64,000 bases of DNA from Pseudomonadota bacterium (GTDB taxonomy: Bacteria; Pseudomonadota; Gammaproteobacteria; Burkholderiales; Rhodocyclaceae): positions 36,301 through 100,300 of the forward strand of contig JAGTRS010000018.1 in assembly GCA_018262195.1 (NCBI GenBank). The letters run 5' to 3'. The notes beneath the pieces are model-generated. The model did not search any database. It was given only the letters and a program-made list of their open reading frames with translations, and was not told the DNA's origin. The position numbers and the translations under genes are program-made. Position 1 is the first letter of the stretch, and each line of letters begins with the position of its first letter. Positions 39,071 to 43,919 of the stretch are shown here, in pieces.

Positions 39071-41836
39071 TCAACACGTAGGTTGCGGGCGACTGCATTT
39101 TTCGAGCAAATAGGCGATGGACTGGTAATTGATGCCGGTTTCGGCGGTCAGGCCGATTTCACAGGTACGGTTGGTTGAGACGCCACAACCACAGTTGGCG
39201 GGTAGATCCTTGTGGATGTGGCGAAGCGCGTGCTGGTTCAGTTCCGGTACGACGAAGCCGCGGTCGCCGGCAAAGCCGCAACAAGTGACGCCAGTCGGTT
39301 CGATGACGTTCTCGGTGCAGGCCTTGAGCAGCGTGCGCAGCTTGGCATCGGCGCCGTTCTTACGCACGCTGCAGTTGATGTGCAGGGCAACCGGCTCGGA
39401 CTGTTTGGAAATCATCAGGCGCGGCAGCAGGGCATCGTGGGCGAATTCGTGGAAGTCGTAGAGTTTGATGCGGCCGGCGAGGTGGCTCTGCATACGGGCC
39501 GAGCAGGTGCTGGCATCCATGATTACCGGATACTTGCCGTTCTCGGAGGCCTTCATCAGCGCTGCTTCCAGCGTGTTGGACATGCCTTCGGCCTCCTCGG
39601 CCATGCCCTTGCTGGCGAGCATCTGGCCGCAGCAGAGTTTGTCGAAACCTTCCGGCAGGATGGGCGCGTAACCGGCGCGGACGAGCAGTTCGATGATCAC
39701 GTCGCCAAGTTGCTGATCGCCTGATTTCGATGGGCCAAAGATGCGGCCGCCGCAGGTCGGGAAATAGACGACCGGATCACCCTTCGTGCTGCGTGCGACG
39801 GGGGCTTTGCCGGCATGGGGCATGTTCTTCTTCCAGGCACCGCCGGAAATGCGGCCGAGGAAGTTGTCGCCGAGCACGCCGGAAACGGCGTGGCCGACTT
39901 TCAGGCCAAGACGCGAGGCGTTGGCCAGCGTGCCGAAGTGTTCGCCGGTCCAGCCATTGACGGCCCGGGTGGTATCACCGATCTTGCGGCCGCGCAGGCG
40001 GCGGGTCAGGTCGCCGGTATCGATGCCGACCGGGCAGGCCGTCGAGCACAGGCCGCAGCCGGCGCAGGTGTCGAGGCCCATGTAGGCGTAATCCTCGCCG
40101 ATGGCCCCGGCCGGTTGGCCTGTAGCAGCGCGGCGGGCCAGTTCGCGGACGCTGACGATGCGCTGGCGCGGGCTGAGGGTCAGGCGGTGCGACGGGCACA
40201 GCGGTTCGCAGAAACCGCATTCGATACAGCGGTCGACGATGTCTTCGGCCGCCGGCATCGGCTTCAGGTTTTCTAGATGGGCATGCGGGTTGTCGTTGAG
40301 GATGACGCCGGGGTTGAGCAGGTTTTCCGGGTCGAACAGGCGCTTTATCTTGCGCATCAATTCGGTTGCTTCCTTGCCCCATTCCATTTCGACAAAGGGC
40401 GCCATGTTGCGGCCGGTGCCGTGCTCAGCCTTCAGAGAACCATCGTATTTCTTGACAACCAGGTCGCAAACGTCGTCCATCAGGCGGGCATAGCGGTCGA
40501 CTTCGGTCTGGTCGCCGAAATCCTGCGTGAAGACGAAGTGCAGGTTGCCTTCCAGCGCGTGGCCGAAAATGATTGCTTCGTGGTAGCCGTGGTGGCGGAG
40601 CAGGGCCTGCAGGTCGAGCGTGGCATCGGCCAGCGATTCAATCGGGAAGGCGACGTCCTCGATCAGCACCGTGGTGCCGGTTCGGCGCATGGCACCGACC
40701 GAGGGGAAGGTGCCCTTACGCACCTTCCAGTACATCTCGCAGGTTGCCGGATCAGTCGAGAACTGCATCGGCTCGACGGTGGCGACGCCGGCCATGGCCG
40801 CATGAACTGCGGCAATCTTTTCGTTGATTCCCTCTGCCGTGGCGGCGCGCACTTCGATCAGCAGTGCGGCGGCTTCCTCGCCCAGTTGGCGCATGATGGC
40901 GGGCAGGCCGGGCTTGTTCTCGACCGAGTGCAGGGCCGGGCGGTCGAGCAGTTCGACGGCCGAAACCGGCTGCGGCTTGAGGCGGATGACCGCCTCGCAG
41001 GCGGTGCGGATATCCGGGAAGAAGACCAGCGCCGATGCCTTGAACGGGTCTTCGACGACGGTGTTGTAGGTGATGCGCGAAATGAAGCCGAGCGTGCCTT
41101 CCGAACCGATCATCAGGTGGCTGAGGATGTCGATCGGGTGCTCGTAATCGACCAGCGCATTCAGGCTGTAGCCGGTCGTGTTCTTGATCTTGAACTTGTG
41201 GCGAATGCGCTCGGCCAGCTTGGCATTGGCGCGGGTGTCGCTACCCAGACGCTCCAGTTCGCCGAGCATGACGGCGTGGCTCTTGGTGAAGGCATCGACG
41301 CTGAGCGGATCTTCCGTATCGAGCAGCGAGCCATCGGCCAGCATGACGCGCAGGCCAGCCAGTGTGCGATAGCTGTTCTGGGCTGTACCGCAGCACATGC
41401 CCGAAGCGTTGTTGGCCGCAATCCCGCCGATCTTGGCGGCGCCGATGGAAGCCGGGTCGGGGCCAATCTTCTTGCCGTGCGGGGCGAGACGGCGATTCAC
41501 CTCGCCTCCGATGATGCCGGGGCCAACCTTGACCTTGCTGGCATCTGCATTTTGCTCGTAGGTCGCGAAACCTTCGCCGATCAGCGCCAGGATGCCGTTG
41601 GTGATGGCCTGGCCGGAAAGGCTGGTGCCGGCGGCACGGAAAGTGACCGGGGTGTTGTTTTGCCTTGCGGTTTGCAGAACCGACTGGGCTTCACGCTCGT
41701 TTTCGATGACGGCGATGACCTGCGGGATCAGGCGGTAGAAGCTGGCGTCGGTGCCATAGGCCAGGCGGCGCAGGTCATCGACGATGATCTGGTTGGGGGG
41801 CAGGTGTTGGCTTAGGTGCTGGATGAGTTCGCTCAT
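39071..41836 (-). CDS. FAD/Fe-S D-lactate dehydrogenase-like oxidoreductase (Dld-II type)
   Basis: N-terminal FAD_binding_4 (VTFRAAGTSLSGQA), two 4Fe-4S motifs CIECGFCEPLCP and CAGCGLCSTACP, C-terminal CCG domains; start at MSELIQHL (41836), because the track extension translates repeat DNA. Confidence 0.85.
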   Translation of the reverse strand: MSELIQHLSQHLPPNQIIVDDLRRLAYGTDASFYRLIPQVIAVIENEREAQSVLQTARQNNTPVTFRAAGTSLSGQAITNGILALIGEGFATYEQNADASKVKVGPGIIGGEVNRRLAPHGKKIGPDPASIGAAKIGGIAANNASGMCCGTAQNSYRTLAGLRVMLADGSLLDTEDPLSVDAFTKSHAVMLGELERLGSDTRANAKLAERIRHKFKIKNTTGYSLNALVDYEHPIDILSHLMIGSEGTLGFISRITYNTVVEDPFKASALVFFPDIRTACEAVIRLKPQPVSAVELLDRPALHSVENKPGLPAIMRQLGEEAAALLIEVRAATAEGINEKIAAVHAAMAGVATVEPMQFSTDPATCEMYWKVRKGTFPSVGAMRRTGTTVLIEDVAFPIESLADATLDLQALLRHHGYHEAIIFGHALEGNLHFVFTQDFGDQTEVDRYARLMDDVCDLVVKKYDGSLKAEHGTGRNMAPFVEMEWGKEATELMRKIKRLFDPENLLNPGVILNDNPHAHLENLKPMPAAEDIVDRCIECGFCEPLCPSHRLTLSPRQRIVSVRELARRAATGQPAGAIGEDYAYMGLDTCAGCGLCSTACPVGIDTGDLTRRLRGRKIGDTTRAVNGWTGEHFGTLANASRLGLKVGHAVSGVLGDNFLGRISGGAWKKNMPHAGKAPVARSTKGDPVVYFPTCGGRIFGPSKSGDQQLGDVIIELLVRAGYAPILPEGFDKLCCGQMLASKGMAEEAEGMSNTLEAALMKASENGKYPVIMDASTCSARMQSHLAGRIKLYDFHEFAHDALLPRLMISKQSEPVALHINCSVRKNGADAKLRTLLKACTENVIEPTGVTCCGFAGDRGFVVPELNQHALRHIHKDLPANCGCGVSTNRTCEIGLTAETGINYQSIAYLLEKCSRPQPTC

Positions 41837-41908
41837 GGGGTTGTCTCGGGTGTTTTTTGTTGGCAGGGGGTTACGCCTTGCTGGCGCTTTCCCGTTGCCA
41901 GGCATGGG

Positions 41909-42130
41909 TTTCCGCCCTGTTGGCGGACGTACTTTCTTTTGCTTCGCCAAAAGAAAGTAGCCAAAGAAAAGGCGACCCCTGGGTCGGTGCCGGCTGCGCC
42001 GGTTCCCTGCGCTACTCGGTTTGAGCGGGGGCTGCGGAACTCGGGCTTCGCCCTCAGACAGTCCTCGCCCTTTTCCCGCTCAAACCTGCGTTGCTCGGCA
42101 CCTCTCAAGGGGCCCGGTGAAACGTCCGCG
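41909..42130 (+). repeat. Structured intergenic repeat, copy 1
   Basis: Contains TACTTTCTTTTG-CTTCGC-CAAAAGAAAGTA hairpin (41930-41959), GTAGCCAAAGAAAAGGCGACCCC, CCGGC-TGC-GCCGG, and GGTTTGAGCGGG...CCCGCTCAAACC (42018-42029/42075-42086). Confidence 0.85.
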
Positions 42131-42224
42131 CTGAAGCTGTGGATTTCAATTTTTGGCTTTTTTTCGGGTTGACCGTGGCAATCGGTTTTGGAAGCTTGTC
42201 GGTTGAACTTGGACGCCTTTCGGG

Positions 42225-42433
42225 TCCCCGTGGAAGGCGCTGAGCAACGCAGGAAGGCCGGGAGCTTTCGGCTGGCGTTGTTTGAGCCGCAGGCGAGTTT
42301 AGCCAGCCGCCCGGCCTTCCGAGTAGCGCAAGGAACCGGCGTAGCCGGCGCCGCCCCCGGGGTCGCCTTCTTTTTGGCTACTTTTTCTTGGCGAAGCAAG
42401 AAAAAGTACGCCCGCCAGCAAGGCGGAACCCCA
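42225..42433 (-). repeat. Structured intergenic repeat, copy 2 (inverted relative to copy 1)
   Basis: Minus strand: TACTTTTTCTTG-CTTCGC-CAAGAAAAAGTA (42379-42408), GTAGCCAAAAAGAAGGCGACCCC, CCGGC-TAC-GCCGG, and GGAAGGCCGGG...CCCGGCCTTCC (42252-42262/42310-42320). Confidence 0.85.
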
Positions 42434-42476
42434 AGCTCATTCAACCGAACCACGTGCGAATGAAGAGAGAACGCCA

Positions 42477-43919
42477 TTACTGGCGTTCCTTCAACATATC
42501 CCGCAACCGCTTCGGCGCCGGCTTCAACGGCACCCGAACCGAAGTCCACGCCCCTTGCTTCGAAGGCATCAGCCACGAAAACCGACTCCCCAACCAAGTT
42601 GCCAAGCCGTACAAGGAAGGCGACCGATATACCGCCGCCCATCCCTTCCAGACAGAAGTCATCAACCAGCTGTACCCCGCCCCCTGCCCAACCATCGAAG
42701 GATTCGCATGCGGCGCAGTAAAAGCCTCCTCCCGCAAGCGCATCAACAGCTCTGGAATCGGAATCTTCACCGGACAAACCTCGCCACAGGCCCCGCACAA
42801 CGACGAGGCTGTCGCCATCGTGGAGGTCGCTTCCAGACCCAGCATGTGCGGCGAGATGATCTTGCCGATGGGCCCCGGATAGGTCGTCCCGTAGGCATGT
42901 CCGCCAATCCGCGTATAAACCGGGCAGTGGTTCATGCACGCCCCACAACGAATGCATTGCAGCGTCTTGCGCAGCTGCTCGTCGGCATAGGCCTGGCTGC
43001 GGCCGTTGTCGAGCAGGACGAGATGCACTTCGCTCGGCCCATCCTTCTCGCCGGCCTTGCGCGGGCTTGAAATCATGTTGAAGTAGGTCGAGATATTCTG
43101 ACCGGTGGCCGAGCGGGTGAGCAGCGAGAGCAGCGGCGGCACGTGTTCGACCTTTTCGACGATCTTCTCGATGCCGGTGATGGCGATATGCACCGGCGGC
43201 GCCGTGGTGCACATGCGGCCATTGCCTTCGTTCTCGACCAGGCAGAGCGTGCCGGTTTCGGCGACGGCGAAATTGACGCCGGAGAGTCCGATGTCGGCTT
43301 CCAGGAATTTCTGCCGCAGGACATTGCGGCCGATCTGGATCAGCGCATCTACGTTGTCGGTGTAATCGACGCCTTCGACTTTGTCGGCAAAGAGCTGGGC
43401 GATTTCCTGCTTGGTCTTGTGGATGGCCGGCATGATGATGTGCGACGGCTTTTCGCCGGCCAGCTGGACGATGTACTCGCCCATGTCCGACTCCAGGGCG
43501 CCGATGCCGGCTGCTTCGGCTGCGTGGTTCAGCTCGATCTCCTCGCTGACCATCGATTTGCCCTTGACCATCAGCCGGGCCGAGTGCTTCTGGCAGATGC
43601 CGAGAATGATGGCGTTGGCTTCATCCGGCGTTTCGGCCCAATGGACCTGGATGCCGTTGCTGGTCAGCTTGGCTTCGAGTTGTTCGAGCAGCGTCGGCAA
43701 CTTGGCCAGGTTGTACTGGCGGATGCTTTCGCCCAGCGTGCGCAGGCTTTCCAGCTCCTCGGCATCGGGGAACTGGGCAGCGCGCTTGCTCATCAGGAAA
43801 TCCATCGCGCCGCGGAAGCTCTGGCGCAGGAAGGGATTCTCGACGACGTCCTTGGCTCGGGCGCGGAAACCTGCCGAGGGCATGAAGTGTAGGGCGTGCG
43901 GGGTCTGCGGGGCGTTCAT
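42477..43919 (-). CDS. lutB: Lactate utilization iron-sulfur protein LutB/LldF
   Basis: CIRCGACMNHCPVYTRIGGHAYGTTYPGPIG; CGACGEVCPVKIPIPELL; VKGKSMVSEEIELN. Confidence 0.93.
   Translation of the reverse strand: MNAPQTPHALHFMPSAGFRARAKDVVENPFLRQSFRGAMDFLMSKRAAQFPDAEELESLRTLGESIRQYNLAKLPTLLEQLEAKLTSNGIQVHWAETPDEANAIILGICQKHSARLMVKGKSMVSEEIELNHAAEAAGIGALESDMGEYIVQLAGEKPSHIIMPAIHKTKQEIAQLFADKVEGVDYTDNVDALIQIGRNVLRQKFLEADIGLSGVNFAVAETGTLCLVENEGNGRMCTTAPPVHIAITGIEKIVEKVEHVPPLLSLLTRSATGQNISTYFNMISSPRKAGEKDGPSEVHLVLLDNGRSQAYADEQLRKTLQCIRCGACMNHCPVYTRIGGHAYGTTYPGPIGKIISPHMLGLEATSTMATASSLCGACGEVCPVKIPIPELLMRLREEAFTAPHANPSMVGQGAGYSWLMTSVWKGWAAVYRSPSLYGLATWLGSRFSWLMPSKQGAWTSVRVPLKPAPKRLRDMLKERQ

Follow-up and report, generated by a model that had tools for sequence, protein, structure and literature searches.

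Relationship to known intergenic repeats

Intergenic palindromes are common and usually small, and RAYT transposases account for the best-studied examples. The REP, BIME and REPIN sequences are GTAG- or CGTC-tagged palindromes with units of 20–40 bp, and the GTAG REPs among them are tied to RAYT transposases (PMC3733652, PMC3116915). ERIC is a 127-bp imperfect palindrome that forms a single long stem-loop, whereas the Ppu-1 family of Pseudomonas putida consists of 617-nt intergenic sequences with a predicted stem-loop and has 39 matches in one genome (PMC2267715). The beta-proteobacterial repeat element (BRE) is about 90 bp long, chromosomal and mostly intergenic, and occurs in Betaproteobacteria (PMC3110155).

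In the window, by which we mean the whole stretch of 64,000 nucleotides analysed here, there is a large imperfect palindrome that shares some properties with these repeats. REP, BIME and REPIN sequences are likewise intergenic, often arranged as inverted pairs and plausibly transcribed, with single units occurring beside pairs, and the element also shares their location in co-directional or convergent gaps. However, an arm of the element is about 200 nt long and carries several hairpins, the whole measures about 535 nt, the complementary arms of at least 133 nt do not fit the size and tag of a REP or REPIN, and six element-bearing genomes have no RAYT. ERIC resembles the element in being a larger intergenic imperfect palindrome, and it is reported to act as an RNA hairpin on neighbouring genes (PMC2267715). 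Its description as 127 bp with one stem-loop nevertheless sets it apart from a branched element of about 535 nt with two lateral ears, which differs in both length and fold. By description only, Ppu-1 is similar in length, intergenic and predicted to fold, and may be a relative. BRE, compared in the same way, has similar copy numbers and a size near that of one ear with its frames, but is described as a number-varying tandem repeat (VNTR) and not as palindrome arms (PMC3110155).

We rate the element as a large, unusual relative of the REP/ERIC-type intergenic palindromes. It is much larger than these usually are, and its branched, covarying structure is conserved through the class with no visible mover. 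Rfam gave no match in the window at the gathering score, and a relaxed threshold returned weak, chance-level hits only; a known RNA family was rejected, as none was found in Rfam. Searching the literature by sequence string returned no named description of the element. It is probably a non-autonomous, chromosomal, intergenic palindromic repeat with two covarying ears, whose copies at old gene junctions are converted within each genome.

Architecture of the palindrome

The components of the element and its flanking genes are as follows.

41902–42436, no strand: whole element, a large imperfect palindrome of about 535 nt (inverted-repeat search, fold, six genomic copies)
41911–41927, + strand: left terminal hairpin TCCGCC..GGCGGA with a T-rich run after it
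41930–41959, + strand: outer hairpin module TACTTTCTTTTGCTTCGCCAAAAGAAAGTA, then GCCAAAGAAAAGGCGACCCC (kept in 6/6 genomic copies)
42008–42017, + strand: left frame TGCGCTACTC
42018–42086, + strand: left ear, 69 nt, with 'a' outer stem and T1 core
42087–42096, + strand: inner left frame TGCGTTGCTC
42085–42127, + strand: left strand of the inner stem, 74% complementary to 42211–42253
42141–42186, + strand: apical-loop motif (ATTTCAATTTTTGGCTTTTTTTCGGGTTGACCGTGG...), kin of a short repeat elsewhere in the genome
42211–42253, - strand: right strand of the inner stem, partner of 42085–42127
42242–42251, - strand: inner right frame, TGCGTTGCTC on the - strand
42252–42320, - strand: right ear, 69 nt as read on the - strand, with 'b' outer stem and T2 core
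42321–42330, - strand: right frame, TGCGCTACTC on the - strand
42379–42408, - strand: right outer hairpin module (TACTTTTTCTTGGCGAAGCAAGAAAAAGTA on the + strand; inverted-repeat search)
42411–42427, - strand: right terminal hairpin with a T-rich run after it on the - strand
42477–43919, - strand: lutB (LUD domain, LutB_C), the flanking gene that lies transcriptionally upstream
39071–41836, - strand: the flanking gene that lies transcriptionally downstream, encoding an FAD-linked oxidase with Fe–S and CCG domains

The preliminary description had drawn attention to two variable slots, each held between conserved 10-nt frames. Both frames and their complements lie where it had placed them, TGCGCTACTC at 42008–42017 with its complement at 42321–42330 and TGCGTTGCTC at 42087–42096 with its complement at 42242–42251, and the inserts are indeed closed by perfect stems, of 12 bp in the left insert (42018–42086) and 11 bp in the right one (42252–42320). 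The latter stem can be read directly from the sequence as GGAAGGCCGGG/CCCGGCCTTCC. The frames alone are weak evidence, as their counts in the window with one mismatch are at or near chance.

The two slots turn out to be side hairpins ('ears') belonging to a single large, imperfect palindrome. Its outer arms (41902–42034 and 42304–42436) are 83% complementary, and the predicted RNA fold has a long main stem from which the slots project as two lateral hairpins, together with an inner stem topped by an apical loop. The left ear comprises, in order, the 12-bp outer stem, a 3' bulge, a middle stem, an internal loop of AACTCG and CTCAGACA, and an apical hairpin. Folding of the whole element gave -322 kcal/mol, compared with -205 ± 7 for shuffled sequences (z = -16.7). 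A chance origin was rejected on the basis of this energy, which is far below that of the shuffles, and of the covariation of the ear stems.

Open reading frames that enter or cross the element (41833–43212 on the - strand; 41816–42172, 42188–42463 and 42388–42882 on the + strand) are probably spurious and could become annotated as hypothetical proteins.

Conservation and covariation of the ears

We extracted 152 ears from 86 loci and aligned the 144 distinct ones. The inserts are 65–78 nt long and have an invariant core, AACTC ... CTCRRACA, within a variable closing stem. Over nine pairs, the outer stem is 88% paired, compared with 54% when partners are shuffled and 42–48% when the pairing is slid by one base. 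A five-pair test gave 82.8% paired against 56.2% and a covariation score of 0.596, against 0.154 for shuffled partners (0 of 500 shuffles) and at most 0.184 for slid controls. Ears from distant families of the class follow the same plan with other stems. The conserved internal loop is the best candidate for any part of the ear that a host factor may recognise.

Since the inserts align and the closing stem covaries, the ear insert evolves by ordinary substitution that preserves pairing, with compensation, which is what the preliminary description itself had named as an outcome counting against its slot. That description proposed that a palindrome, hypervariable and open to exchange, occupies a site of recombination or recognition, or else that the two arms undergo gene conversion. 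Two alternative cores do occur within one outer stem and are swapped among copies, and the idea of a dispersed palindrome with real core exchange inside the frame holds; a free slot does not, as the main core types number only two. The reported lack of similarity between the inserts was not borne out either, as both are homologous and the two ears of one element have a mean identity of 0.68. Nor is the slot hypervariable: the 144 distinct ears can be aligned around the invariant core, and the inner part is the most conserved, with 24 invariant columns. Conversion between arms fails as the main process, because the arms of one element are not homogenised and are no more alike than those of different elements (0.818 for a_i-b_i versus 0.834 for a_i-b_j). 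We therefore regard the slot reading as mostly refuted and give it very little credence.

In the ear outer stems (alignment A4), A–C mismatches on the strand of the ear itself are about six times as frequent as G–U pairs, a ratio that is inflated by shared ancestry; the excess is independent of the direction in which the neighbouring genes are transcribed.

Distribution among genomes and gene junctions

The genome of the window, whose assembly has an estimated contamination of 9.95%, holds six diverged copies, the other five of which are about 78–83% identical to the element in the window. A covariance model of the ear found exactly 12 ears there, two per copy, and no further ear. Within the genus, 33 of 37 genomes have a match to the element (E <= 0.001), and of 229 genomes sampled across the class at least 26 match the ear model, these representing more than 20 families; in a sample of the phylum, matches were confined to the class. 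Many of the genomes are draft assemblies, in which some copies may be mis-joined.

No phage record searched had an element match, and plasmid records were practically free of the element, with only the short outer-hairpin motif present, in the form of a 51-nt outer-hairpin stretch in an Ilyobacter megaplasmid. Three Pasteurella records have a weaker match to the outer hairpin. A phage or plasmid origin was rejected, the element being essentially absent from both record sets.

The 76 copies with both neighbours resolved, based on gene calls from a simple codon-usage script, lie between co-directional (67), convergent (7) or divergent (2) genes, and none lies inside a predicted gene. Compared with control gaps (50 nt or longer), divergent gaps are under-represented (p = 5e-5). 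The orientation of the a and b ears relative to transcription has no bias (19 against 16). Among 86 sampled copies, which were picked by similarity to the element in the window and so may be a biased sample, 69 fall into 14 positional groups with homologous flanking genes. These groups come from single-linkage clustering of the flanking ORFs, and in two of them one genome contributes two copies.

Two junctions occur in filled, reduced and unoccupied states, and could serve as natural test sites for how repeats arise, persist and affect operons. The lutB-dehydrogenase junction is filled in G000, G007, G009, G011, G013, G023, G024, G026 and G027. It lacks the element in G001, G008, G010, G015, G017, G019 and G022, where its place is taken by an ordinary hairpin that resembles a terminator and has a T run, and G018 has only a single end-hairpin like the left terminal hairpin. 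The a ear at this junction points towards the dehydrogenase gene in G000 and G024, and towards lutB in G007. Presence at the hypD-hypE junction is patchy: elements or parts of them are found in G000, G007, G008, G010, G014, G016, G017 and G026, and the genes overlap, without the element, in G002, G006, G011, G018, G020 and G024. G025 looks like it keeps an end-hairpin remnant.

Core exchange and probable conversion between copies

A full element usually has one 'a' ear, with an outer stem ending in ..GCGGG and core T1, and one 'b' ear, with an outer stem ending in ..CCGGGCGG and a core that is either T1 or T2. When the tree is built with the ears left out, the label of the b core changes about 10 times; supported branches force 7 of these changes, and the count is approximate because row L169 was mislabelled by pattern. 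L105 (G002) and L153 (G003) share identical frames and inner arm, have outer arms that are 96% identical and differ little in the outer ear stem, yet carry different cores. This exchange looks like conversion between copies, limited to the two main core types.

The p-distance is 0.258 between positional orthologues, 0.193 between copies of one genome and 0.273 between other pairs. The nearest relative is a copy of the same genome in 29 of 54 cases and a positional orthologue in 2 of 54. Five copies in G034 form one clade and four in G027 another, each with support of 100/100, and the members of both clades occupy sites common to other species. Because copies at the same site are hardly closer than random pairs and those of the same genome are closer, conversion from copy to copy is suggested. 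Neither the distances nor the tree support the view that each site has kept one ancestral copy which evolved in place. A combination of shared positions and unlike sequences would also arise if copies were repeatedly re-inserted at preferred sites and later lost.

Under conversion, copies at old sites would be refreshed by recombination with other copies of the same genome, and this process could swap ear cores, flip orientation and homogenise the copies. Pairing may be kept because the folded form, as a cruciform or a single strand, is recognised by a host factor or makes the element persist, and insertions would be tolerated only in intergenic positions that are clear of divergent promoter regions. 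The combination of shared sites and genome-specific sequences looks like concerted evolution. A bolder proposal, which we put forward tentatively and consider rather unlikely, is that giant palindromes stand at fixed junctions throughout the class, with the ear and its invariant internal loop bound by a dedicated host factor and the copies within each genome kept alike by structure-guided recombination; if true, it would mean that a non-coding bacterial element undergoes concerted evolution at its ancestral sites.

Mobility

The same distribution could be produced by a MITE-like element that is moved by a transposase acting in trans and prefers certain junctions; shared sites would then be independent insertions and end-hairpins would be excision scars. 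The copies are dispersed and form lineage-specific clusters of similar sequences, orthologous sites are both filled and empty, and single end-hairpin footprints are present in G018 and G025. In another species, the near-identical pair L113/L114, whose similarity spans 565 nt, has terminal inverted repeats as in a MITE, imperfect and about 24 nt long. Neither a clear target-site duplication at L113/L114 nor an evident one at hypDE was found, however, and the element is nearly absent from phages and from plasmids, which have the short hairpin motif only. The recurrent neighbours are ordinary genes at orthologous sites, and no recurrent transposase was recognised among 321 ORFs near copies. The Y1 transposase is also missing from six copy-bearing genomes: PF01797 (Y1/RAYT) had no match in G000, G002, G007, G015, G017 or G027, the genome of the window included. 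A RAYT-driven REP was rejected for these six genomes. In G012, there are four PF01797 genes and no element match. We consider trans-mobilised insertion unlikely and favour conversion among copies at old junctions.

Possible role in transcripts

The molecular function of the element is one that we can only infer. Terminator-like sites, each a G+C-rich hairpin with a T run, lie at both ends of the element, and the region contains more such sites than expected (10 against 2.4). Together with the avoidance of divergent gaps and the terminator-like hairpin with a T run at the lutB-dehydrogenase junction of the seven relatives without the element, this could indicate a functional 3'-end element of transcripts, such as a two-way terminator or an RNA-processing hairpin kept for gene regulation. 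The element is also found inside the hypDE junction, however, where it parts genes that overlap in relatives without it. This position argues against a strict terminator role, because a strong terminator would cut off hypE unless a promoter had been gained. In the main stem, G–U pairs do not significantly exceed A–C mismatches on the transcribed strand (352:319, p = 0.22), and there is therefore no sign of selection for pairing in mRNA. A role at transcript ends seems improbable as the reason for the element's maintenance, and we retain the converted intergenic repeat as our preferred reading.

Parts of the element outside full copies

The apical-loop motif of about 36 nt (ATTTCAATTTTGGSCNTTTTTTCSGGTTGACCGTG; 42141–42186 in the window; loci L016-L030 and L072-L101) also stands alone. 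Its 19-nt 3' part has 33 matches in the genome of the window, several of them at gene 3' ends, and the reversed pattern has none there. In G002, which gave 549 first-look candidates for the element query, many of the extra matches listed are this motif.

The outer hairpin motif (TTACTTTCTTTGCTTGCCCAAAGAAAGTAACCAAAGAAAAGGCACCCC) occurs at about seven places in pILYOP01 of Ilyobacter polytropus (L070), a fusobacterial megaplasmid far outside the class. The outer end-hairpins are repeated beyond the element at L174 and L242 (G027) and at L119-L121 and L140-L141 (G034). In G027, they are repeated on both sides, and the gap at the lut site is longer than 1100 nt. At L142, L143 and L144, which lie on one contig of G019, the matches span one arm only; this suggests that they are solitary arms, and the arm may be the basic unit.
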